From Sphingopyxis sp. LC81 (GTDB lineage: Bacteria > Pseudomonadota > Alphaproteobacteria > Sphingomonadales > Sphingomonadaceae), in NCBI RefSeq assembly GCF_000756375.1, contig NZ_JNFD01000009.1, positions 62,001 through 126,000 of the forward strand: DNA of 64,000 nt, written 5' to 3'. The position numbers and the translations under genes are program-made. Of the stretch, positions 10,779-31,165 are shown piece by piece. The stretch's first letter is position 1; each line of letters begins with the position of its first letter. Below the pieces are notes generated by a model. The model did not search any database, had not been told where the DNA came from, and saw only the letters and a program-made list of their open reading frames with translations.

Positions 10779-12010
10779 AGATCGAGCGTGCGGATTTCGG
10801 GGATGAGCTTCCACCAAAGCAATGCCCCGAGCACCGACAGCGCGGCCGCCGCCCCAAAGGCATAGCCATAACCGCCGAGATAATCGACGATCAGCCCGGT
10901 GACGATCGGGCCGACGATCCCCGAAATATTGCCGAGCGCATTCTGCACCCCCATCCAGCTGCCCGCCGCGCGCGGTCCCGCGAAAATCTGGCCGACGGCG
11001 AAGATATTCGTGGCGATCAGCCCGGCGCCGAAGCCCGCGACCGCCAGCCACAGTGCGAGCATCGCATAGCCATTCGCGACCGCGATGCCCGCGGTCGCCG
11101 TGCCGATGGCGAGCTGTCCGGCGATCATCAGCCAGCGGCGAACCTCGCCCTCATTGGCGCCCTTCGCGACCATGCGATCGGACAGCCAGCCGCCCGCGAG
11201 CGCGACGACACCTTGCGTCGTAAAGCTCAGTGTCGTCAGCGCGGTCATTTCGCCGATCGAATAACCGCGCGTATTGACGAGGTAGAGCGGCAGCCAGGCG
11301 AGCAGGAAATAAAAGCCGTAGTTCGACAGGAAATGGACGGCGCTCATCTTCCACAGCGCCGGCACGCGAAGCAGGCGGCGGATCGAAACCCGTTCGCTCG
11401 CCGGCGCCGCTCCTGCGCATGCCCGCATCGACGCTGCGGCAAATTGCCAGGGAATAAGCCAGAGCAAAGTCACCGCGCCGAAAATCCAGAAGACCGGCCG
11501 CCAGCCCCATTCGCCGAGAATCGCGCCGCCCGCGAGCACGCCAACCGCGGGGCCAAAAGCGATCGCGGCGGCCACCGCGGCATTGGCGATCCCGCGCCGC
11601 TCAGCGGGGACTTCGGCGGCGAAAATCTTGGTGCTGCCGGGAAAGGCGATGCTTTCGCCCAGCCCGAGGAACAGCCGCAGGATGATCAGCGATATCAGCC
11701 CGCCCGCGAAACCGGTGAGCGCGGTGCTGATCGCCCAGATCGCGACGCCGAGCGCAAAGACGCGGTAGACGCAGAAGCGGTCGCAGAGCCAGCCGACGAA
11801 CAGGCAGGCGGGGGCATAGACCCAGAAAAAGGCCGAAACCGCGAGGCCGAACCCCGTCGCTGACAGCCCCAGCTCCTCCTTCATCAGCGGCGCCGCGACT
11901 CCGATTGCGCCGCGATCGACATAGTTGAGCAGGACCGACAGCGCGATCAGGACGACGACCCACGTCACCCGTTTTCCGCCGGCCCGGCCCTCGATCGATT
12001 GTGTCGCCAT
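10775..12010 (-). CDS. MFS transporter, anion:cation symporter (ACS)-like
   Basis: A 411-residue, 12-helix major facilitator. LNYVDRGAIGVAAPLMKEELG in helix 1 and the loop 2-3 motif GWLCDRF are typical of the ACS family, which moves organic anions such as hexuronates, phthalates or tartrates with protons. ATG at 12010 is preferred over an in-frame TTG two codons upstream because GGGGAG is correctly spaced to the ATG. That ribosome site is part of a hairpin (12020-12038). Divergent from a small NTF2-like gene. Substrate unknown. Confidence 0.85.
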   Translation of the reverse strand: MATQSIEGRAGGKRVTWVVVLIALSVLLNYVDRGAIGVAAPLMKEELGLSATGFGLAVSAFFWVYAPACLFVGWLCDRFCVYRVFALGVAIWAISTALTGFAGGLISLIILRLFLGLGESIAFPGSTKIFAAEVPAERRGIANAAVAAAIAFGPAVGVLAGGAILGEWGWRPVFWIFGAVTLLWLIPWQFAAASMRACAGAAPASERVSIRRLLRVPALWKMSAVHFLSNYGFYFLLAWLPLYLVNTRGYSIGEMTALTTLSFTTQGVVALAGGWLSDRMVAKGANEGEVRRWLMIAGQLAIGTATAGIAVANGYAMLALWLAVAGFGAGLIATNIFAVGQIFAGPRAAGSWMGVQNALGNISGIVGPIVTGLIVDYLGGYGYAFGAAAALSVLGALLWWKLIPEIRTLDL

Positions 12011-12019
12011 ATTCAAACG

Positions 12020-12038
12020 CTCCCCTGCCCGGGGGGAG
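12020..12038 (-). promoter_or_regulatory. Hairpin that can mask the MFS ribosome-binding site
   Basis: On the MFS transcript, CTCCCC (12038-12033) pairs with the Shine-Dalgarno GGGGAG (12025-12020), a six-base G/C-rich stem with a seven-base loop, ending nine bases before the ATG. Such pairing could lower translation until opened. Seen directly; function inferred. Confidence 0.4.
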
Positions 12039-12145
12039 GGCTACCAGATGGATGGCCGCGCGCCAGCGAAAATTCGCCGCACGTTTGTTCAACGCGTTCG
12101 CTGATCGGCGCGCTATTCTTCCCGCAACATCATGGGAGAAAGCAG

Positions 12146-12577
12146 ATGGCCGTCACCGCGCAAATCGAACGCCCCCTGTCCGTTGCCACCCTGTTCGACC
12201 GCTATCATGTCGGCTGGGAAACGAAGGATCCCGACCTGATCGCCTCGCTCCATTCGGACGATACGGTCTTCGCGCTCCACGACGGCACCGAACCCGTGAC
12301 GGGGCGCGAGCGGCTCCGCGAGCATTGCCGGCAATTGTTTGCGACCTTCGATTTCACGCAGGAAATGGGGCGACGGCTCTATGGCGACGACCATTGGGTG
12401 TTTGAATGGACGATGCTGCTCGCGCTCACCGAACCGGGCGGCGCGCCTTTTGTCGCGCGCGTCGGGATGCTCGACGTCGTCACGCTGAACGATGCGGGCG
12501 AGGTGGTGCGCAAGGATGTCTATCCGAACGGGCGCGAGATGCACGGCGCCTTTGTGCGCGCCGGGATCGACCGTTAG
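12146..12577 (+). CDS. SnoaL/NTF2-like domain protein
   Basis: A 143-residue cone-barrel protein: FDRYHVGWETKDPDLIASLHSDDTVFALHDGTEPVTGRERLREHC is the classic SnoaL-like opening (a short helix, then strands around a pocket). Such proteins may be isomerases, hydratases or ligand binders; no catalytic dyad can be assigned with confidence. ATG at 12146 follows GGGAGAAAG. It sits between a divergent MFS transporter and an AraC-type regulator, 45 bases before the latter, so the three may form one small-molecule response unit (inference). Confidence 0.78.
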   Translation: MAVTAQIERPLSVATLFDRYHVGWETKDPDLIASLHSDDTVFALHDGTEPVTGRERLREHCRQLFATFDFTQEMGRRLYGDDHWVFEWTMLLALTEPGGAPFVARVGMLDVVTLNDAGEVVRKDVYPNGREMHGAFVRAGIDR

Positions 12578-19212: not shown

Positions 19213-21282
19213 ATGGGTTTCGACATTTTGCGGCGCGAACTGCGTGGTCGCGCATCGGTGTGGACCGCTGCGCTGCTTGGCGCGGCGATCATGGTAGTGC
19301 CGGCGGGCGGCGCGGAGCTGGAGCAACGGGTATCGCTGGTGCCACGCGACGCGCTTTTTGTTTCGCCCGGCTATTCCGAACTTCAGATCAGTCCCGACGG
19401 CAAGCAACTGGCCTTTCTCCACCCGCTGAACGGCGTCCTCAACGTCTGGGTCGCGCCGCTCGACGATCCGAAGGCCGCCACCCCCGTCACCCGTTTCGAT
19501 ACGCGGCCGCCCGACAGTTTTCAGTGGAGCCCCGACGGGCGGTACATATTGGTGCTGAAGGATGTCGGCGGCGAGGAGCATAGCCAGCTCTGGGTCGCGA
19601 ACCTCGAAAAAAGCACGGTCGTCAATATGACCGCCGATCCCGCCGTGCAGACGAAGATCGTGAAGCTTTCGAAGCGCCGTCCCGGCGAAATCCTCGTCGG
19701 CATGAACATTCGCGACCGCCGCTATCGCGATATCTACCGGATCGACCTCGCGACGGGGCGGCGTACCGAAGTGCTCCGCAACGAGCGCAATTACATCGAT
19801 GTCGTTGCCGATCCCGATTTCAACATCCGGCTGGGCGTTCGCGGCAATGTCGACGGCTCGTCGACCTATTTCCGCCTCGACCCCGCGGGGCCGAGCGAGT
19901 TCATGACGATCCCGCTGGCCTCGCTGCGCAATTCGAAGATCCTCGGGCTCGACGGCGCGGGCAAGCTGTTGATGTTCGACAGCCGGACCAGCGACAAGGC
20001 GAACCTCGTCTCGGTCGATCTCGCCACGGGCAAGCAGACCCCGCTCGCGGCGTCCGGGCGGGCCGACATCGTCGATACGCTGTTCGACGAAGCCAGCGGT
20101 ACGCTGCTTGCGACGCGTGAGGACCCGCTCGTCAGCGAATGGACGGTGCGATCGGACGAGGTGCGCGCCGAGTTCGCCGCGCTGCAAGCGGCGGCCGCGG
20201 GGCCGTTCAAGATTGTCGACCAGACCCCCGACAATGCGCGCTGGCTGCTCCTCGAAACGGTCCCGAACCGCCCCGACCGTTATAGCTGGTGGAACCGCAA
20301 GGACCGGGTGCTCGTGCCGCTCCTCTCGACGCGGCCCGGGCTTGAGAAACAGGCGCTCGCGCGGCGGCTTCCCGTAACGATCGCGTCGCGCGACGGGCTC
20401 GGCCTGCCAAGTTACCTGACGTTGCCAGCAGGCGCGAAACTCGGCGCCGACGGGATGCCGGTGACGCCCGTTCCACTGGTGCTGCTCGTTCACGGCGGCC
20501 CCTGGCTTCGCGACGATCTGGCTTTCGATCCGCAGCACGCCTGGCTCGCTGACCGTGGCTATGCGGTGCTGTCGGTGAACTTCCGCGCGTCGGGGGGCTT
20601 CGGCAGCGACTTCATGGCGAAGGGCGACCGAAAATGGTCGGAAACGATGCACGACGACCTGCTCGACGGGGTGCAGTGGGCGATCGACAAAGGCGTGACC
20701 GCAAAGGACCGCGTCGCGGTGATGGGGCTGTCCTATGGCGGCTATTCGACGCTCGTGTCGCTGAGCTTCACGCCCGACACCTTCCAGTGCGGCGTCGACC
20801 TTGCGGGGCCGAGCAATCTGGTAAAGCAAGTCGCGGGGATGCCCGACTGGTGGACCTGGCAGCGCCCGCAGTTCGTCAACCGCGTGGGCGATCCGGCGAC
20901 AAAGGAGGGCGCGGCCGACCTGATGCGGCGCTCGCCGATCGCGCGTGTCGATGCGATTTCTAAGCCTTTGCTTGTGACGAACGGCGCCAACGACCCGCGC
21001 ATCTTTCCCAGCCAGTCGGAAGAGATCGTCGATGCGCTGAAGGCGCGGGGCAAGCCGGTGACTTATGCCTTTTACCCCGACGAGGGCCATGTCTATGCGA
21101 AGGATGCGACGAACATCTCCTTCGCGGCGATCGCCGAGCATTTCCTGTCGAAATGCCTCGGCGGGCCGGCCGAAGCTTATGGCGACGATCTTGCCGGGTC
21201 GCAGGTCGAACTGAAGACCGGCGCCGGGTTTGTGCCCGGTCTCGAGCAAGCACTCGAGGTCGGGCGAAGTAGCGGTCGCTAG
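19213..21282 (+). CDS. Exported S9-family serine peptidase (prolyl-oligopeptidase / acylaminoacyl-peptidase type)
   Basis: 689 residues: signal peptide (about 12-33, cleaved near GGAEL), beta-propeller (about 40-400) with WD-like repeats such as ISPDGKQLAFLHP and WSPDGRYILVL, then an alpha/beta-hydrolase domain with Ser507 in GLSYGGYS, Asp594 in NGANDPR and His626 in DEGHVY. These enzymes release dipeptides or acyl amino acids from short peptides; the propeller limits access to small substrates. Probably periplasmic. ATG at 19213 gives the signal peptide. Its stop overlaps that of the convergent acylase fusion in CTAG. Divergent from LysR copy 1. Confidence 0.9.
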   Translation: MGFDILRRELRGRASVWTAALLGAAIMVVPAGGAELEQRVSLVPRDALFVSPGYSELQISPDGKQLAFLHPLNGVLNVWVAPLDDPKAATPVTRFDTRPPDSFQWSPDGRYILVLKDVGGEEHSQLWVANLEKSTVVNMTADPAVQTKIVKLSKRRPGEILVGMNIRDRRYRDIYRIDLATGRRTEVLRNERNYIDVVADPDFNIRLGVRGNVDGSSTYFRLDPAGPSEFMTIPLASLRNSKILGLDGAGKLLMFDSRTSDKANLVSVDLATGKQTPLAASGRADIVDTLFDEASGTLLATREDPLVSEWTVRSDEVRAEFAALQAAAAGPFKIVDQTPDNARWLLLETVPNRPDRYSWWNRKDRVLVPLLSTRPGLEKQALARRLPVTIASRDGLGLPSYLTLPAGAKLGADGMPVTPVPLVLLVHGGPWLRDDLAFDPQHAWLADRGYAVLSVNFRASGGFGSDFMAKGDRKWSETMHDDLLDGVQWAIDKGVTAKDRVAVMGLSYGGYSTLVSLSFTPDTFQCGVDLAGPSNLVKQVAGMPDWWTWQRPQFVNRVGDPATKEGAADLMRRSPIARVDAISKPLLVTNGANDPRIFPSQSEEIVDALKARGKPVTYAFYPDEGHVYAKDATNISFAAIAEHFLSKCLGGPAEAYGDDLAGSQVELKTGAGFVPGLEQALEVGRSSGR

Positions 21283-24200
21283 GGCTCGCCGAGATATTTC
21301 GCCAAGCCCGCGTCGGGCGGCGGCGACCGTCCGGCCGCCTCTGCTACGTCGATCCGCAGGAAGGCGTTTTGGACATAGCGGATGCCCGCCCAGCGTAGCG
21401 GTTCGATCTCCCAATTCGGGGCTTGCTCGCGGACGTAGGGCGCGTGGGCATCGGGAACAGCGCCGGTGACCAGCCCCGCGAGTGCGCGGGCGCAAATTGC
21501 GCTGGTGATCACACCATGTCCCGTATAGCCGTAGCTGTACCCGATCCGGCGCACGGCATCGAAATGCACCGTGGGCAGCCAGTCGCGCGGAATGCCGAGA
21601 TAGCCCGCCCATTGATGCGTGAATTCGACGCCATCCAGCGATGGCCACCATTCGGTCAGCCGATCGCGGATCCAGCCGAAATTGGCGTTTTCGCTGAGCG
21701 CGGTCTCGCTCATGTCGGAACCATAGCGGTACGGCGCGCCGCGGCTGCCGAACAGGATGCGCCCGTCGGCGGTGCGAGTGAGATAATTGGTCGTATGCAC
21801 GTAAGAGCTGAGGCATTCGCCGCCGGCCCAGCCGACCGTCTCCCACTGTTCCGCGCTGAGCGGCGCGGTGAGCATGATCGTCGAGGCCATCGGGATGAGC
21901 CGGCGGCGATAGGCGGGCTGCGCGGTCATATAGGCTTCGCCTGCGAGCAGAACCGCGCGGCGAGCGCGCAGCGTGCCGCCTGAGGTAACGAGCGCCGGTT
22001 GCATGCCTGCGGTGGTTTGCAACACCTCGGTCCCCTCATGGATCCGCACGCCGCGCCGTTCGAGCGCACGCGCGAGCCCGCGCACAAGGCGGCCGGGGTG
22101 GATTGTGCCGCCCGCGCGCAGCCGCAGGGCACCCTTGACCTCGGTCGCATGGACGGCCGCTTGCGCCGCATCGGCGTCGAGCAATTCGCAGCCATCCTCC
22201 ATGCCGAGCCGGGCATAGGCTTCGAAGGATTGGCGCAGCGACGGCAATTGCTCGGCGCTGCGTGCGAGGGTGAGGACGCCCACGGGGTTGAAATGCGCGT
22301 CGATGCCTTCCTCTTCGCAGATGCGGCCGACTTCCCCCACCATCGCCTGCTGCGCGAGCAGCATCGCCCGGGCCGTCGCTGCACCGAAACGCCGGGTGAG
22401 GGCGGCGGGGTTGATGGGGAAGCGCGGCGAGCACCAGCCGCCATTGCGCCCCGACGCGCCAAAGCCGCAAAATTGCCGCTCGACGATCGCTATCGACAGA
22501 TCGGGGTCGTTTTGCAGCAGATACCAGGCGGTCCACAGACCCGTGAAGCCGCCCCCCATGATCGCGATATCGACGGTCGCGTCGCCCGGCAGCGCGGGGC
22601 GCGGCGTCAGATCGTCGTCGCAGCTTGCGAGCCAGTAGCTGCCGATGTCGGCGGGTGAGACGACGGCGGTCAATCGGGGCTCCGCCGCGCGCCAACGGGC
22701 CGGCGGTCGATATTCGAGCGTCATCGTCGACGCGGCGGTTTCGCGTATCCTGTCAGGCGAAAGCTCGATCTTCTTGAGCTCGTTGGTCTCGTGCATCATC
22801 GTCTGGTCGGCGAGGTGCGGGTTCCCCTTGCCGTCGGGACCGATGAACAGATTCTGGCCGCCCGCGTCGATCACCGAATAGAGCGCTCGCCGGTCGGCGC
22901 CGATTTCCATCAACCCGACCCAGCTTTCGCCGCCATTGTGCGGCGCCATCGTCGGGCCGAGGCGCAGGACCGCCGACAGGCGATGCTCGGGATAATCCTC
23001 GGCCATTTGCGGACGATCGGGCGTCTCGAGCGATGCGTCGAAATATTTCCAGTAAATCGGCTGCTTCCATTCCGACATGTCCTTGCCGGGGAAACGCGGT
23101 TTGACTTCGGCGATCGTCGCCTTGATCGTGTCGATCATCATCGCGGTGCGACCCTGCCCGTTGAAATAATCGACGCCCAGCGGCGCGCCCGCTTTATCGC
23201 CCTGAAAGGCGCGCAGCAGCAGGCTGGATTGATAGGTCAGGTAACGGTCGGTATCGATCGTTTTCCACCAATCGCCCATATCGTCGCCGAACAGCGTTTT
23301 CGGCGCGGTTTGGAGCCAGGTCCGGTAGAGGGTCAGTCCCGGATTGTCGTAGCGCTGATCACCGTTGCGGTCCTGATACAGGCCGTTGAAGCTCAGCATC
23401 AATTCGCCGGCGCGCTTCACCTCGGGGTCGCCGCTCGCCGCGATCGCGGCGCGGATATAGGGTGCGAAAAAGTCGGGCGCCGCCTGATTGCGATCGACCG
23501 CGCCGAGCGCGTTGAAGATTTTGCCGTTGAACTCGCGCATGTCGAGCAACGTCAGTGACTGGCCCGCCTTCGCGAGCCGGTCGCCGAGCCAGGTACGGAA
23601 GGTCGCGCCAATGCGGGCATTGTCGCCCTCCTGCGACCAGCCCGTCGCCTTGCTGTTCCACGACATGAAGTAACCCTGCTTCGGGTTGATCATGTGCGGC
23701 TTTTCCGCAGGGGTCAGGAAACCGGTCCACTCATATTCGCCGGTGCCGGGTGTCGGCAGCCGCGGATCGACGCCGGCGGCCTTCTTGGGGAGCGCCCCGG
23801 CCTCGAAATAGGCGATTGTGCCGTCCTCGCCGCCGTAGCACGCGCCGAGATTCCAGCCGAGGCGGTCGACGCCCTTTTCGCGGAATTCGGCGAGGCTCTT
23901 CGCGCGGCCCATTTCGGCAAAGGCGACCCATGTATCGAGTTCGCGGCCGTGGACGCCCATCTGCTGCGAATAAGCGGTGTCGTTTTCGACATCCCATGCG
24001 ATCACCGGGCCGTGGATCGTCCACGCGACCTCGTGCGTGAAGGGCGCGCCGTCCTTGACCTTGAAGGCTTCGGTCCGGTGCTCCATTTTCTTCCACGCAC
24101 CCTTGTACCAATATTCGTACCGGTTCCTGGGGTTGAGCTTTTCGGCGAAGGTGGTGCCGGCCTCGCTGCTGCCTGACACCAGCAGCCAGCCGTGCTGCGC

Positions 24201-25115
24201 GCCGCGGCCCATCGTCGGGACACCCCAGCCGGTCGAGCCGAAGCCCGTGTTGTCGAAACCGCCGCCCTTCAGGTGGATTTCGGGGCCGTCGGCTGTGGCC
24301 TCCAGCATCAACACCTTTCCGCTCGCCGATTTTTCGGGGCCGATGACCATGCAGCGGCTTGCGCCTTTCACCGGTTCGGTGGGCTTTGTCTGCGCCGCGG
24401 CCGACGACACATTGCGATAGGGGGCCAGTTGCGCCGAAGCGAGGACGGGGGCGGGTATCGGCCGGGCCGGGGCGAGATCGTCGCCCGCGGGGATGGTGGT
24501 CGGGGAGTCGGGGTCGGAAATCGGCACGACGTCGTTGAAAATCGTCCACGCCTTGTCCTGACCGTAGCGCGCCGTCATTGCCTTCAGAAATTCGAGGTTA
24601 CGGATTTCATATGTGTCGCGTCCCAGCGGCGCGGCGGTGATGAGCGCGAGATATTCGGTGAGGCTCCAGCGGGTCGGCTTGATCCCCCAGCGGATGAATT
24701 CGAGCGGGGTCAGCCGCGCAGGATCGGCGTTCACTTCGTCGATACGCTTGTTGATGCCGTCGACCATCGCCTGGATCATCTTCTGATGCTCGGGCGCCAG
24801 CGCCTCGTAGCGCTGCATCAGCACCGCGTCGGAAAGCCTCCGGCCGCGCATCATCTTGTCGCTTTTGATCGCCGATTTCCCGACAAGCTCGGCACGGCGG
24901 CCCTGCGTGTTGTGCCGCGCAAGCTCCATCGCCGCGAGGCGGTCGTGTGCAATCGCATAGCCCGCGCCGAACATCACCGCGTCGGACGTCTCCGCCTCCA
25001 CATGAGGCACGCCGAAATCGTCGCGGGTGATGCTGACCTTTTCGGCGGCGTTCGCCTGCGCCGCGAGCAACAGCGCGGCGGAACCATGGAGCAAGGCGGC
25101 AGTCGAACGGCGCAT
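21279..25115 (-). CDS. Penicillin-acylase-family N-acyl hydrolase fused to a DAO-type FAD oxidoreductase
   Basis: One uninterrupted 1278-residue frame. Residues 1-23 are a signal sequence with Arg-Arg at positions 2-3. Residues about 25-795 are an Ntn-hydrolase acylase (DFGVPHVEAETSDAVMFG, AIAHDRLAAMELARHNTQGRRAEL, then the beta-chain start at Ser253 in GASRCMVIG, and WNSKATGWSQEGDN, HNGGESWVGL). Residues about 815-1278 are a complete FAD protein: SYWLASCDDDLTPRPALPGD, GGGFTGLW dinucleotide fold, GRNGGWC and the C-terminal GYTGHGV. Each half has the length of a free-standing family member. The linker is only about 12-15 residues, and a TTG with GGAG six bases before it (22673) could start the second half independently. 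Last gene of the TBDR-AbgT-M20 operon. Fusion, lost stop, or dual start cannot be told apart here. Confidence 0.8.
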   Translation of the reverse strand: MRRSTAALLHGSAALLLAAQANAAEKVSITRDDFGVPHVEAETSDAVMFGAGYAIAHDRLAAMELARHNTQGRRAELVGKSAIKSDKMMRGRRLSDAVLMQRYEALAPEHQKMIQAMVDGINKRIDEVNADPARLTPLEFIRWGIKPTRWSLTEYLALITAAPLGRDTYEIRNLEFLKAMTARYGQDKAWTIFNDVVPISDPDSPTTIPAGDDLAPARPIPAPVLASAQLAPYRNVSSAAAQTKPTEPVKGASRCMVIGPEKSASGKVLMLEATADGPEIHLKGGGFDNTGFGSTGWGVPTMGRGAQHGWLLVSGSSEAGTTFAEKLNPRNRYEYWYKGAWKKMEHRTEAFKVKDGAPFTHEVAWTIHGPVIAWDVENDTAYSQQMGVHGRELDTWVAFAEMGRAKSLAEFREKGVDRLGWNLGACYGGEDGTIAYFEAGALPKKAAGVDPRLPTPGTGEYEWTGFLTPAEKPHMINPKQGYFMSWNSKATGWSQEGDNARIGATFRTWLGDRLAKAGQSLTLLDMREFNGKIFNALGAVDRNQAAPDFFAPYIRAAIAASGDPEVKRAGELMLSFNGLYQDRNGDQRYDNPGLTLYRTWLQTAPKTLFGDDMGDWWKTIDTDRYLTYQSSLLLRAFQGDKAGAPLGVDYFNGQGRTAMMIDTIKATIAEVKPRFPGKDMSEWKQPIYWKYFDASLETPDRPQMAEDYPEHRLSAVLRLGPTMAPHNGGESWVGLMEIGADRRALYSVIDAGGQNLFIGPDGKGNPHLADQTMMHETNELKKIELSPDRIRETAASTMTLEYRPPARWRAAEPRLTAVVSPADIGSYWLASCDDDLTPRPALPGDATVDIAIMGGGFTGLWTAWYLLQNDPDLSIAIVERQFCGFGASGRNGGWCSPRFPINPAALTRRFGAATARAMLLAQQAMVGEVGRICEEEGIDAHFNPVGVLTLARSAEQLPSLRQSFEAYARLGMEDGCELLDADAAQAAVHATEVKGALRLRAGGTIHPGRLVRGLARALERRGVRIHEGTEVLQTTAGMQPALVTSGGTLRARRAVLLAGEAYMTAQPAYRRRLIPMASTIMLTAPLSAEQWETVGWAGGECLSSYVHTTNYLTRTADGRILFGSRGAPYRYGSDMSETALSENANFGWIRDRLTEWWPSLDGVEFTHQWAGYLGIPRDWLPTVHFDAVRRIGYSYGYTGHGVITSAICARALAGLVTGAVPDAHAPYVREQAPNWEIEPLRWAGIRYVQNAFLRIDVAEAAGRSPPPDAGLAKYLGEP
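22673..22683 (-). promoter_or_regulatory. Possible internal ribosome site and TTG start for the FAD half
   Basis: On the minus strand GGAG (22683-22680) is followed after six bases by TTG (22675-22673), in frame with the FAD domain and giving a 464-residue product, the usual size for this oxidoreductase family. The FAD domain's conserved N-terminus (SYWLASC) begins 11 codons later. Confidence 0.4.
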
Positions 25116-25137: not shown

Positions 25138-26334
25138 CTATTTCGGCAGGAATGTCTCGGCCAAGGCGACCCACAGCGCGGCGCCGGTCGGCGAAATGCT
25201 GTCATCATAGGCATAGTGCGAATTGTGGAGCATCACCGACCCCGGCCCCTCGTCGCCGTTGCCGAGGAGCAGGAAGCAGCCGGGAACGACGTCGAGGTAG
25301 CGCGCGAAATCCTCGCCCCCCATGCCCGGTGCATCGAGATCGACGAAGCGGTCGGGGCCGACGATGCCGATCGCGATCTCGCGGACCTTGGCATAGAGGT
25401 CGGCCGGATTGTGCAGCGCGGGATAGCCGCGTTCGTAATGCAGCTCCGCCTTCGCGCCGAACGAGGCCGCGACACCCGTCACGATCTCGCGCAGCCGCCG
25501 TTCGGTCGCATCCTGGCTCGCGCGCGACAGGGTGCGCACCGTGCCGCCCATGCGCGCCTCGTCGGCGATGATGTTGAACGCGGTGCCCGCTTCGACCTTG
25601 CAGATCGAGACGACCGCGGCGTCCATCGGGTCGGTGCTGCGCGCGACGATGCTCTGCACCGCGACGATGATTTGCGCTGCGACGAGCACGGGATCGACCG
25701 TCAGGTGCGGGCGCGCGGCGTGGCCGCCCTTGCCGGTGATGACGATCTCGAACTTGTCGGCGGCGGCATAGAGCGCGCCCGCGCGCCCCGCGAGCTTGCC
25801 CGCCGCGATGCCCGGGCGGTTGTGGATGCCGAAGATGGCGTCCATCGGGAAACGGTCGAACAATCCGTCGCGGATCATCGCGCTGGCGCCGCCATCGGGG
25901 TCGCCGCCGGGCCCCTGATAGCCCAGCGATTCCTCGGCGGGCTGGAAGATCAGATGCACCGCGCCGTCGAAATTGCGCGTCGCGGCGAGATGCTTTGCGG
26001 CGCCGAGCAGCATCGTCGTATGTCCGTCGTGGCCGCAGGCGTGCATCACGCCGGGCGTGCAGGACTTGTGATCGGACTCGGCCAGTTCGGTCATCGGCAG
26101 CGCGTCGATGTCGGCGCGGATGCCGATCGCGCGGTCCGACGTTCCGGCGCGGATCGTCGCGACGATGCCCGTGCCGCCGATGCCGGTATGCACCTCGTCG
26201 ACCCCGAAGCTTTGGAGCAAGTCGAGGATGAAGCGGACCGTGCCCTGTTCGTGAAAGCCGAGTTCGGGATGCTGATGGATGTGCCGGCGCCAGGCGGTCA
26301 TGTCGGTTTCGAGCGATTTGAGGTCAACGGACAT
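25138..26334 (-). CDS. M20-family amidohydrolase (hippurate hydrolase / AbgAB-like)
   Basis: 398 residues with the M20D signature: HIHQHPELGFHE at the start, the first metal site MHACGHDGHTTMLLGAAK, and IFQPAEES with the catalytic Glu pair; a dimerisation domain (about 185-290) lies between the two catalytic halves, and GMGGEDFARYL plus LHNSHYAYDD close the site. Hydrolyses N-acyl or N-aroyl amino acids in the cytosol. ATG at 26334 is preceded by a strong AGGAGG. It follows an AbgT transporter, echoing the abgABT system for p-aminobenzoyl-glutamate, and precedes the acylase fusion by 22 bases. Confidence 0.92.
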   Translation of the reverse strand: MSVDLKSLETDMTAWRRHIHQHPELGFHEQGTVRFILDLLQSFGVDEVHTGIGGTGIVATIRAGTSDRAIGIRADIDALPMTELAESDHKSCTPGVMHACGHDGHTTMLLGAAKHLAATRNFDGAVHLIFQPAEESLGYQGPGGDPDGGASAMIRDGLFDRFPMDAIFGIHNRPGIAAGKLAGRAGALYAAADKFEIVITGKGGHAARPHLTVDPVLVAAQIIVAVQSIVARSTDPMDAAVVSICKVEAGTAFNIIADEARMGGTVRTLSRASQDATERRLREIVTGVAASFGAKAELHYERGYPALHNPADLYAKVREIAIGIVGPDRFVDLDAPGMGGEDFARYLDVVPGCFLLLGNGDEGPGSVMLHNSHYAYDDSISPTGAALWVALAETFLPK

Positions 26335-26448: not shown

Positions 26449-28056
26449 TCACGGCACGGCGTGCGCCGCGACCTGATAAAATACCTGCGCGTGCGGGCCG
26501 AGGGGGAGGTCGAAGACGACCCATGCGACCACCATCGTGATCCCCGTCGCCATGAAGCACAGCGCATAAGGCAGCATCAGCGCGAGCAGCGATCCGACCC
26601 CCATCGATTTGTCCCACCGCTGGCAGAAGACGAGGACGAGCGGGAAATAGCTCATCAGCGGGGTCATGATGTTGGTGTAGCTGTCGCCCATGCGATAGGC
26701 GGCGGTCGTCATTTCGGGGCTGATGCCGAGCAGCATGAACATCGGCACGACGACCGAAGACAACACGCTCCATTTGGCGGTCGACGATCCGATGAACAGG
26801 TCCATCATCGAGGAGAGCAACAGGACGCAAACGAGCAGGAGCGCCGGGGGCAGGTTCATGCCCTGCAATTTCTCCGCGCCGCCGATCGCGATGATCGGGC
26901 CGATGCCCGACCAGTTGAACATCGCGACGAAATGCGCCGCGAAAAAGACGAAGACCAGATAGGGCGCGATCGTCTTCACACCCTCGCGCATCATCGCGAT
27001 CACGTCGTTCGAGTTCTTCACCGTCCCCGCCGCGCGCCCGAAGACCACGCCGGTCAGCAGGAACATCAAAAACAGCGCCGCGATCATCGAGGCGTAGAGC
27101 GGCTGCAGGCGGATCGGGCCCTCGGCGTCCTGATCGATGAAAGGGGTGTAGCCGGGCCACAGACAAAGCGCGGCGAACAGCGCGGTGACCAATAGCGCCG
27201 CAATGCCGGCGTGGCGAAGCCCCCGCCGCTCGGCGTCGCTGAGGTCGCCCTTTTCGAGATCGGCGCGAAGCTCTGCGTCGACCTCTTCGTTCCAGGTTCC
27301 GAGCCGCGGTTCGACCACCTTGTCGGTGATGAACCAGATGATTGGGGTGAAGAAAACGACAATGCCGAGGATGAAATACCAGTTGCCGAGCGGGTTCATC
27401 GTCCAGCCGGGCTCGACGATACGCGCGGCCTCCTGCGTGAAGCCGAAGAGCAGGACGTCGAGCTGGCCGGGCATGATGTTGCCCGCATAGCCCCCCGACA
27501 CGGCGGCGAGCGCGGCGGCGATACCGGCGAGCGGATGACGCCCGACCGATGCGAAGAGCACCGCCGCCATCGGGATGAGCACGACATAGGCGGCATCGGC
27601 GGCGTGGTGCGACACCATGCCCACCACCGCGATGATCGGCGTCATATAACGGCGCGGCGTGCTCCGCAGCGAACCGCGGATCAGCGCGAAGAACAGCCCC
27701 GACCGCTCGGCAACCGCGGCGCCCATCATGATCGTCAGGATGATGCCGAGCGGGGTGAAGCTGGCATAGGTGCGCGGCATCTCGGTAAACAGCCGCGCAA
27801 TATTCTCGGCCGAAAACAGGCTCGACGCGCGATAGGTCAGGACGCCGCCCGCGAGCTCGGCGCCGGCGGGCGCGTCCTTGCCCGAATAGGGTAGCGATGC
27901 GCTCCACCCGAGCCCCGCGCCGATCGCCGAAACGAGCATCAATATGATGATCAGATAGAGGAAGATGATCGTCGGGTCGGGCAGCAGATTGCCGACGCGC
28001 TCGACGAAACCGAGAAACCCCCTCTGACGGGCAGGGCGGATGGTTTCAGCACTCAT
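26449..28056 (-). CDS. AbgT-family transporter (p-aminobenzoyl-glutamate / aroyl amino acid type)
   Basis: 535 residues with the AbgT layout: short cytosolic start ending GNLLPDPTIIFLYLIIILML, two hairpin regions, and about nine to eleven membrane segments. Family marks include MVSHHAADAAYVVLIPMAA, GGYAGNIMPGQLD and the C-terminal MGDSYTNIMTPLMSYFPLVL. Members import p-aminobenzoyl-glutamate or export sulphonamides using the proton gradient. ATG at 28056 follows AGGAGG. Neighbouring M20 hydrolase supports import of an N-acyl amino acid followed by hydrolysis; the exact cargo is unknown. Confidence 0.9.
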   Translation of the reverse strand: MSAETIRPARQRGFLGFVERVGNLLPDPTIIFLYLIIILMLVSAIGAGLGWSASLPYSGKDAPAGAELAGGVLTYRASSLFSAENIARLFTEMPRTYASFTPLGIILTIMMGAAVAERSGLFFALIRGSLRSTPRRYMTPIIAVVGMVSHHAADAAYVVLIPMAAVLFASVGRHPLAGIAAALAAVSGGYAGNIMPGQLDVLLFGFTQEAARIVEPGWTMNPLGNWYFILGIVVFFTPIIWFITDKVVEPRLGTWNEEVDAELRADLEKGDLSDAERRGLRHAGIAALLVTALFAALCLWPGYTPFIDQDAEGPIRLQPLYASMIAALFLMFLLTGVVFGRAAGTVKNSNDVIAMMREGVKTIAPYLVFVFFAAHFVAMFNWSGIGPIIAIGGAEKLQGMNLPPALLLVCVLLLSSMMDLFIGSSTAKWSVLSSVVVPMFMLLGISPEMTTAAYRMGDSYTNIMTPLMSYFPLVLVFCQRWDKSMGVGSLLALMLPYALCFMATGITMVVAWVVFDLPLGPHAQVFYQVAAHAVP

Positions 28057-28150
28057 AATTGCGCCTCCTGCCAGGCTGGATTCGTATTGCCGTACAAAGA
28101 CAATATGAGGCCCGCGCACGCGGCGCGAGCCTCTCCTTGCCGGCCCGGAT

Positions 28151-31100
28151 TCAGAAGTTCACTTCGAGTCCGAGACGGATAACCGGTCCGAACTGATCGA
28201 AGCCGCCCCCCGACGGATCGATGACCTGAACCGATTCCATCACCGGCAGCTTTTCGTTGAGAAGATTGGTAACGCCGAATGAGAATTTGGCTTCCTGCTT
28301 CCCGTTCATCGGCAACGTATAGGATGCCGAAATATCGTTGTAGAAGCGCGAACCCGTCCGGTCGGGCGACAGCAGCTCGCGGCTGATCCCCGGCGAGATG
28401 TCGGTCAGCGCCTGGCTCGACTGATAACGGCCCTGCCAGCCGACCGTCAGGCCGCCGACCGAATAGTTGAGCCCGACGACGCCCTTATATTTGGGGTAGC
28501 CGTAAAAGCCTTCGAGCACGGTGTAGAGGTCCGGCCGCGCCTGGAAGGTGAAGGTCCGCAGGCGATGCAGATAGGTGAAGGCGAGGTTGGCCGAGATACG
28601 GCCGCCGCCCAGCGGGCGGGCATAAAATACCTGCGTGTCGAGACCCGAGGTCTGCAGCTTCGACGTGTTGACATAGGTGCTTCTACCGCCGGTGATGCTG
28701 AAGAAGTTCGCGCCGGGGGTCGTGTCGCGGGTGATCAGCGCACACAGGTCCGGATCGGGGCCGCCGGCGCGGTCGACGCAATTTTCGGCGATCGCTTGCG
28801 GGCTGAGGAAGCTGATCGCGTCCTCGATCTTGATGTCGAACCAGTCGGCCGAAATCTGGAGGCCGGGCAGGAAATTCGGCGTCAGGACGAAGCCGGCCGT
28901 CCAGCTGTCCGAAACTTCGGGACGAAGATCCTGATTGCCCGACACGATGAACGGCACGCCGATCCCGCCGCTGACGGGCACGAAGCCCGCCGGACGGCCC
29001 AGCGCGGCGCAGTTGGCGGCGCGATTGGGATTTTGACCGAGGTTGTTTTGCGAACAGGGGTCGTTGACGTTGGTCGTCTGACCCTCGCTCGGCCGGAAGG
29101 CTTCGAAGATGTTCGGCGCGCGAATGGCGCGGCTCAACGTCGCGCGCAGGCGGAACCCGTCGACCGGCTCCCAGATCGCACCCGCTTTCCACGAGGTCGC
29201 CTGTCCCGCGTGGCTGTAATCGGCGTGGCGCACCGCGCCTTCGACCGACAGCAGCTTGGCAAAGGGCATGTCGGTCAGAATGGGCACGCTCAATTCGCCG
29301 AACAGTTCGGTGACGTGATAGCCGCCCTCATAATCCTGCGACGACGCCTGGTTGGTCACGCCGGCCTTGATCAGCGGATCGGTGGTCCGGCCGTTGCGCT
29401 CCTTCCGATACTCCGCGCCGAGTGCGATGCCGATCGACCCGCCGCCGGGCATGGTCAGGAACTTGCTCGAATCCCCGGAGAGCGAGAAGCCCGCCGTGGT
29501 CTGGCGGACGAAGGCGTTGGACACCGTCGTCGTGCTGACGAAGTCGCGCGCTTCCTGCGAGCTGGCGGTCGAACCGAACGGATTGAAGGGCACGCAGGGG
29601 CCGCCGCCGACGATAGCGGGCCGGACATAGCCGACGGGTTGAAGCGAAGGGACGTCCATGCGGCAGCGGATCTGCCCCGAACCGGGATCGACGACGGCGT
29701 CGAGCGCCGCGCGCAGATTGGGCAGGAGCATGCGGTTGTAGCCGGTGAACTTCGCCTTGGTGCGGCCGTAGGTGCCATAGATATCGTAGCGGAGATCGGA
29801 GAAGCCGGTCTCGAACTCGCCCTTGAGACCGCCGACGAACGACAGGCTGTTGCGATCGACCTGGCTGAAGCGCAGCCCGACATCGGTATAGAGGCGATCG
29901 AGAGCCAGCGTCGTCGCGCCGGCCGCCAGCAATTGTTGGCGGAAGGGCTCGTTGAGGAACGCGTTCTGCGCGATGTTAATCGGCTGTGCCGCGCGGAGCA
30001 CGGGCTGCCCGCGTCCATAGCTCGACGTGTTGTTATAATCGGCGCCGAAATAGGCCCGCACAGTGTCGCTGAAGTCGAAATGGGTGCTGAGGTTGAGGTT
30101 GTAGCGCTCGATGTCGGGAACGATCGAAATCGAATCGTCGAAGCGGAAGCAGGCCGGTCCGCAATTGTCGAATTTCCCGAACAGGCTGCCGTCGGTGAAA
30201 AGCGGCGTCGGCGCACGGCGCGGGGTGCCGTCATCGTTGAAGACGAACGCACCGAGGCCGCCGGTGTCGCCGCGCAGACCCACGGCGCCGTAACCCGAAT
30301 ATTGAAAGGCTTCGCCGCCGGGAACGATGATCAGATCGGGAATGCCGTCGTTCGGCCCGGTATCGGCCGGATTGATCATCGCGACATTGTTTCGCATGTC
30401 GGCCTGGCGCGGGGTGATTTCCTTCACCTTCGTATAGTCGGCCGCGACGGTGATGTTGCCGCGGCCCTGGGCGAAATTCTTGCCCGCGACGATGCTTCCG
30501 CCGTAGGTGAAGCCCTCGGGACCGCGCGCCGGCTGCGATCCGCTGAACGACAGGCGAACGCCGTCGAAATCGTCCTTGGTGATGATGTTCACGACGCCCG
30601 AGACCGCGTCCGAGCCATAGATGGCCGATGCGCCGCCGGTGATGATTTCGACGCGTTCGATCAGATTGGGGTTGATCGAATTGAGGTCGAGCGCCGCGCT
30701 GTCGGTGGCGCCGGCGACGCGGCGCTTGCCGTTGACGAGGACGAGCGTGCGGTTCGACCCGAGGCTGCGCAGGTCGACGACGGCGAGGCCGCCGCTATTT
30801 TCGCCGCGCGAGCCCGAGGCACCGCTCTGCTGGCTCTGCTGCATGCTGCCCGAAAAGCCGATCGCGGGTTGCTGGGCAAGCGCGCGGCCGATGTCGAACT
30901 GCGCGTTGTTCGCGCCCAGCGTTTCGGAACTCACCACGCCGACCGGGGTCGGCAAGTCGAGGACCGGGCGGCCGATGCGCGACCCTGTCACGACGATGTC
31001 GCTGGCGCCATCTGTCGCCGCACCGTCGTCCGGCGCGGGTGCCTGCGCGTCCTGTGCGTGCGCGGTGCCCGCTACGCCGGTCAGCCCCGCAAAAAGGGAA

Positions 31101-31165
31101 ATCGCCAGAAGCGATGTCGAAATCTTGAACTTGTTGCTCTCCGCCGTTGCCGGTCCCTGGATCAT
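28151..31165 (-). CDS. TonB-dependent outer-membrane receptor (1004 aa)
   Basis: Signal peptide (about 14-37, ending AHAQD), TonB-box-like DIVVTGSRI, plug domain (about 60-200; QPAIGFSGSMQ, VLVNGKRRVAG, IERVEIITGGASAIYGSDAVSGVVNIITK) and a long 22-strand barrel closing with RLGLEVNF. The size over 900 residues and the VLVNGKR plug wording match the large sphingomonad receptors that take up peptides, glycans or other sizeable ligands, not the smaller siderophore type. First gene of an operon with abgT, M20 and the acylase fusion; upstream is a CCGGCATTGG box shared with the leuC-like promoter. Probably imports the acylated substrate. Confidence 0.95.
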   Translation of the reverse strand: MIQGPATAESNKFKISTSLLAISLFAGLTGVAGTAHAQDAQAPAPDDGAATDGASDIVVTGSRIGRPVLDLPTPVGVVSSETLGANNAQFDIGRALAQQPAIGFSGSMQQSQQSGASGSRGENSGGLAVVDLRSLGSNRTLVLVNGKRRVAGATDSAALDLNSINPNLIERVEIITGGASAIYGSDAVSGVVNIITKDDFDGVRLSFSGSQPARGPEGFTYGGSIVAGKNFAQGRGNITVAADYTKVKEITPRQADMRNNVAMINPADTGPNDGIPDLIIVPGGEAFQYSGYGAVGLRGDTGGLGAFVFNDDGTPRRAPTPLFTDGSLFGKFDNCGPACFRFDDSISIVPDIERYNLNLSTHFDFSDTVRAYFGADYNNTSSYGRGQPVLRAAQPINIAQNAFLNEPFRQQLLAAGATTLALDRLYTDVGLRFSQVDRNSLSFVGGLKGEFETGFSDLRYDIYGTYGRTKAKFTGYNRMLLPNLRAALDAVVDPGSGQIRCRMDVPSLQPVGYVRPAIVGGGPCVPFNPFGSTASSQEARDFVSTTTVSNAFVRQTTAGFSLSGDSSKFLTMPGGGSIGIALGAEYRKERNGRTTDPLIKAGVTNQASSQDYEGGYHVTELFGELSVPILTDMPFAKLLSVEGAVRHADYSHAGQATSWKAGAIWEPVDGFRLRATLSRAIRAPNIFEAFRPSEGQTTNVNDPCSQNNLGQNPNRAANCAALGRPAGFVPVSGGIGVPFIVSGNQDLRPEVSDSWTAGFVLTPNFLPGLQISADWFDIKIEDAISFLSPQAIAENCVDRAGGPDPDLCALITRDTTPGANFFSITGGRSTYVNTSKLQTSGLDTQVFYARPLGGGRISANLAFTYLHRLRTFTFQARPDLYTVLEGFYGYPKYKGVVGLNYSVGGLTVGWQGRYQSSQALTDISPGISRELLSPDRTGSRFYNDISASYTLPMNGKQEAKFSFGVTNLLNEKLPVMESVQVIDPSGGGFDQFGPVIRLGLEVNF

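Follow-up and report, generated by a model that had tools for sequence, protein, structure and literature searches.

The closest described counterparts of the enzymes considered here are the penicillin G acylases (PF01804; PDB 7reo, 6nvx, 1gk9 and others) and oxidases of the DAO family, among them sarcosine oxidase beta (1vrq), glycine oxidase (4ysh) and L-proline dehydrogenase (1y56). Genes for enzymes of both kinds stand side by side in an operon of Sphingopyxis sp. H053 (locus L015, genome G323), where the order is TonB receptor, AbgT, M20, acylase, oxidase, convergent S9 peptidase, LysR, HAD and a D-serine-dehydratase-like gene. The same order occurs, with 82-99% protein identity, in the 64,000-nucleotide stretch of Sphingopyxis sp. 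LC81 analysed here (the window; contig positions 62001-126000, within a 4.4 Mb genome of 48 contigs). In H053 a TAG codon lies between acylase and oxidase, unlike in the window, where the two form one open frame. Our best reading of this frame is a recent stop loss or a base-call error and not an established two-in-one enzyme. Two adjacent genes of one catabolic operon, for a secreted acylase and a cytosolic amine or amino-acid oxidase, have almost certainly been joined in this one genome by a TAG to TGG base change.

The merged frame, which lies on the minus strand, is uninterrupted between its ATG at 25115 and its TAG at 21279 (25115..21279 (-)) and encodes 1278 residues. The mechanical open reading frame starts further upstream, at 25214, and ATG 25115 is the start common to relatives in the N-terminal alignment. 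Each of two Pfam profiles is present nearly whole: Penicil_amidase (PF01804) at residues 26-791 (E 3.8e-95; 320.8 bits against a cut-off of 21.3; profile positions 1-674 of 675) and DAO (PF01266) at residues 849-1214 (E 6.1e-58; 197.5 bits against a cut-off of 27.9). The frame and the placement of both domains confirm the original prediction that two full-length enzymes share 1278 residues. A linker had also been proposed; a short stretch does separate the enzymes, and in it the acylase end is followed by what was once the stop codon (residue 808), by a spacer of six codons (809-814) and by the oxidase start at residue 815. The penicillin-acylase-type N-acyl hydrolase takes up residues 1-807 (22695..25115 (-)), as judged from Pfam, from matches to penicillin G acylase structures and from the gene end in relatives. 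The DAO-type flavin adenine dinucleotide (FAD) oxidoreductase comprises 464 codons from TTG 22673 plus a stop (21279..22673 (-)), as judged from Pfam, aligned starts and structure-model matches.

Read base by base, codon 808 is TGG (Trp; 22692..22694 (-)) in the window and TAG in the three closest relatives, genomes G323 (loci L034 and L015), G363 (L035) and G336 (L038 and L018), which share about 94% DNA identity with it, most aligned blocks being 92-96% identical. Across the 12 positions 22688-22699, base 22693 is the sole difference from these three sisters. A stop at or near the window acylase end was present in all 33 of the other acylase genes whose end was read (22 nearer and 11 more distant). 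The nearer genes come from 22 distinct loci (L007-L013, L024, L034-L045, L047 and L048), leaving aside the window itself, second loci of the same genome, the oxidase-only locus L014 and L046, which ends before the junction. Their stop is TAG in 14, TGA in five and TAA in three, each within about 5 codons of window residue 807. For the more distant set 26 loci were tried; 15, mostly oxidase loci, had no match reaching the acylase end, and 11 (L073, L074, L077-L083, L085 and L092) carry a stop 0 to 35 codons past the aligned part. The six spacer codons and the TTG behind the junction are identical in the window and L038, so no adaptation to the fusion is visible.

Separate oxidase starts in relatives align with TTG 22673 of the window, being TTG in L034, L035 and L038, GTG in L040 and L041, and ATG in L014, L048 and L052; in L007, L036, L037, L045 and L047 an oxidase ATG lies one to eight codons upstream of the aligned position. 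A Shine-Dalgarno-like GGCGGAG (22680..22686 (-)), with the same letters in L034 and L038, stands six bases 5' of the window TTG. The aligned starts support the earlier suggestion that the oxidase can begin separately at 22673-22671. The relatives read thus encode two genes, the second of them starting at the FAD domain, which had been named in advance as an outcome that would speak against a fusion. With TAG in the three nearest genomes as well, the explanation supported is the one that had been offered as an alternative, loss of the acylase stop codon. The join is in frame because the oxidase start of this clade lies 18 bases behind the stop, in phase and with no other stop between.

In 11 other genomes the oxidase lies directly behind the acylase, in phase in six (L007, L034, L035, L036, L037 and L038) and out of phase in five (+1 in L040, L041 and L047; +2 in L045 and L048). 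The six cases, in which the oxidase follows the stop in phase across a gap without a further stop, would suit programmed readthrough of TAG, by which relatives too would make a merged chain. However, in five of the 11 pairs the phase is not kept, and one of these five, L045, has a gap similar to those of the in-phase L036 and L037; the six in-phase cases are not independent, as L034, L035 and L038 belong to a single close group; and the stop is TAA in two of the 11, with gaps that vary in length and sequence. Programmed readthrough was therefore rejected on frame, and we regard it as extremely improbable. Two sequence oddities were seen in this group: the oxidase of L016/L036, from a metagenome-assembled relative, has an in-frame TAA at codon 212 (counted from L016:8488), and the acylase of L035 (G363) has a one-base frame difference near codon 135, either a mutation or an error.

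Further genomes hold the two genes apart or hold one of them. In L025 (G328) acylase and oxidase are separated by four genes, which code for a family 3 solute-binding protein, an ATP-binding cassette (ABC) permease, an ABC ATPase and a Cupin_3 protein, and by eye the same four occupy a 2.5 kb gap between the two enzyme genes in G150 (L008 and L014). This insert, whose importer is of the polar-amino-acid type, spans 8435-10952 in L025, 3947-5451 in L008 and 1-1507 in L014. A related oxidase occurs without acylase in G339, G344 and G320; in G339 (L049) it is preceded by genes for an ABC ATPase and a Cupin_3 protein, and the genus search gave no acylase match in that genome. The acylase is present in genomes G313 (L020/L039), G343 (L043) and G365 (L044), where no oxidase matched at E 1e-60 with up to eight candidates scored per genome; in L020 an S9 peptidase directly follows the acylase. 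Acylase-only, oxidase-only and importer-separated genomes together indicate that acylase and oxidase are separable units. The arrangements suggest that the oxidase locus once consisted of importer, cupin and oxidase, and that loss of the importer and cupin genes brought oxidase and acylase together in the clade of the window, an order of events that we infer.

Both halves occurred in one open frame in the window only, as judged from the matches listed in searches of 298 genomes of the family, 80 of the genus, 396 of the order and 385 of the class. The whole-frame searches matched eight of the family genomes (E 1e-60) and 19 of the genus genomes, with 19 loci in the contig collection, and at E 1e-40 they matched 35 of the order and 41 of the class genomes; the genome counts include that of the window, and the genome sets overlap and were sampled from their groups. 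The two best candidates per genome were scored in the family, order and class searches and up to eight in the genus search. Elsewhere, matches to both halves (L007 and L034-L038) carry a stop. An open frame of 1209 amino acids in G957 (L107) was considered as a second fusion and rejected, since the DNA ahead of the oxidase is GC-rich, with a second long frame opposite, and what it encodes is not acylase-like by eye. An established bifunctional enzyme, which would show the same domain pair in one frame in several relatives, is thus not supported, and no literature was found that combines penicillin acylase, FAD-dependent oxidoreductase and Sphingopyxis.

A merged chain in which acylase and oxidase act sequentially on one substrate would nevertheless fit some of the observations. 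Each domain is complete and under constraint, the two genes are neighbours within an operon in the 11 other genomes, and the C-terminus of the acylase may tolerate an extension, as the beta part of 7reo runs directly into its alpha part (order read from the alignment). The frame is, however, found in one genome, the nearest relatives retain the stop, the separate start signals persist, and export would be expected to part the flavoenzyme from cytosolic FAD; we therefore think a functional bifunctional enzyme very unlikely. Equally slight is the chance that the mutation is real and has given rise to a newborn bifunctional enzyme, an exported acylase carrying the flavin oxidase on its beta chain, which would deacylate an N-acyl amine and oxidise the product outside the cytosol.

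The stop loss itself could also be apparent, with 22693 a sequencing or consensus error in a strain that has the normal TAG and makes two ordinary proteins. That only a single base in a single genome is affected, and that its neighbours, the spacer and the TTG start look unaltered, would agree with such an error. The window was compared over its 64 kb with the three sisters, using 45 open frames picked by size and constraint, of which 37 were comparable in G323, 36 in G363 and 45 in two G336 pieces jointly, some stop codons being not alignable. The acylase stop was the sole in-frame stop shared by all sisters but missing in the window. In three other frames a stop occurs in a single sister (codon 2, 24 or 52), close to frame starts that are possibly over-long. 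Differences in frame were mostly compensated pairs, near gene ends or against one sister only, with the exception of 11999-12577, where all three sisters differ near the start. Over the 36199 sites aligned in all four genomes, private differences number 650 in the window, below the 815 in G323, 750 in G363 and 712 in G336. General assembly noise was rejected as the cause of the lost stop, given that private differences are not in excess and that no other stop was lost among the 45 genes. At four-fold sites of the acylase and oxidase genes 43 of 492 positions (8.7%) carry private changes in the window, and a real mutation would thus be readily supplied. An error at 22693 is accordingly rather unlikely in our view; we favour a real mutation by about four to one, a judgement and not a computed value.

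Selection constrains acylase and oxidase strongly: pairwise ratios of nonsynonymous to synonymous change (dN/dS) among the window, L034, L035 and L038 range over 0.09-0.12 in the acylase and 0.10-0.16 in the oxidase. Pairs that include the window are no higher than the others, so the stop loss is either young relative to these divergences or tolerated. Decay of either half was rejected on the same values (0.09-0.16), which average over the time before the stop loss.

Four points weigh against reading the frame as a recent joining of two ordinary genes. In one assembly of one strain, a real mutation and a base-call error at 22693 look alike and cannot be told apart. Translation of the merged chain is predicted from sequence only. 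The compartments of both enzymes are deduced from N-terminal sequences read by eye. The searches were not a census of all proteomes and, with the numbers of candidates scored per genome, a rare second fusion could have escaped them.

Over both the alpha and beta parts the acylase can be aligned with penicillin G acylases whose structures are known, and it is like them in the placement of the predicted catalytic Ser and Asn. Ser253 (codon 24357..24359 (-)) and Asn487 (codon 23655..23657 (-)) are invariant across the 21 aligned acylases; from their positions in penicillin G acylase we take them to be the N-terminal nucleophile of the beta chain and the oxyanion-hole Asn, respectively. The residue after the nucleophile is Arg in 20 of the 21 rows and Asn in the most distant one. 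The acylase further differs from the known ones in its low identity to them and in the oxidase attached to it in this assembly. A structure model of the acylase (mean predicted local distance difference test score, pLDDT, 58.0) was set aside. By eye, the N-terminus resembles a signal peptide in the window and in relatives alike (residues 1-23, MRRSTAALLHGSAALLLAAQANA; 25047..25115 (-)), and the acylase is probably periplasmic. Export by the twin-arginine translocation (Tat) route had been proposed from the arginines at residues 2-3. These are present, and most of the genus retains MRRS. In the Tat motif the twin arginine is followed by hydrophobic residues at +2/+3; in the N-terminus MRRSTAALL these positions, read by eye, are Thr and Ala, and the motif gives no clear support to Tat export.

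The oxidase model (pLDDT 82.8) has the DAO fold of 1vrq, 4ysh and 1y56, with template modelling scores (TM-scores) by query length of 0.65-0.68, whereas sequence identity to the known oxidases of the family is 16-21% in the top rows. No NCBIfam model scored above its cut-off for the oxidase, the best being TIGR03329 with 228.6 against 632.8 bits. The separate oxidases of relatives have no visible signal peptide at their start, so the enzyme is probably cytosolic.

Ancestrally, and in the normal case, the two genes yield two proteins. If 22693 was called correctly, translation would continue from the acylase into the oxidase. The oxidase's own TTG and Shine-Dalgarno-like sequence are kept, and some separate 464-residue protein could still form. 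In E. coli, reinitiation is reported to drop strongly with distance (PMC10666635); with the 18-base stop-to-start gap of the sisters this suggests that the oxidase probably depends for the most part on a ribosome-binding site of its own, and the window retains that site. After the predicted self-cleavage of the acylase at Ser253, the products would be an alpha chain and, in place of a 1278-residue chain, a beta-oxidase chain of some 1026 residues. Export by the general secretory (Sec) route would present the oxidase unfolded and free of flavin, and much of its activity would likely be lost, partly offset by internal starts at TTG 22673.

Upstream of the acylase, on the same strand, lie genes for an M20 amidohydrolase (25138..26334 (-); PF01546, PF07687), an AbgT-family transporter (26449..28119 (-); PF03806) and a TonB-dependent receptor (28151..31165 (-); PF00593, PF07715), and this order is kept in relatives whose loci reach that far. 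At the other end, a CTAG palindrome at 21279-21282 is common to the oxidase and the convergent S9 peptidase, each of which reads its own TAG stop from it. The simplest pathway for this gene set would start with uptake through the TonB receptor and deacylation in the periplasm, after which the amine or amino acid set free would be imported and oxidised in the cytosol. That L025 and G150 have an amino-acid-type importer between the two enzyme genes agrees with an amino acid or amine crossing between compartments. AbgT proteins are also named efflux pumps (profile match below cut-off), so the AbgT step may run in either direction.

The conserved cluster of TonB receptor, AbgT, M20 hydrolase, acylase and oxidase is a reasonable candidate for the catabolism of an N-acylated amine or amino acid. 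The locus also shows that only one base may separate an ordinary operon from a two-domain frame that catches the eye, and it warns against deducing function from a domain fusion known from one genome. If the base is real, strain LC81 and its TAG-bearing sisters would form a natural matched set for the effects of a fresh fusion on export, flavin loading and downstream expression.

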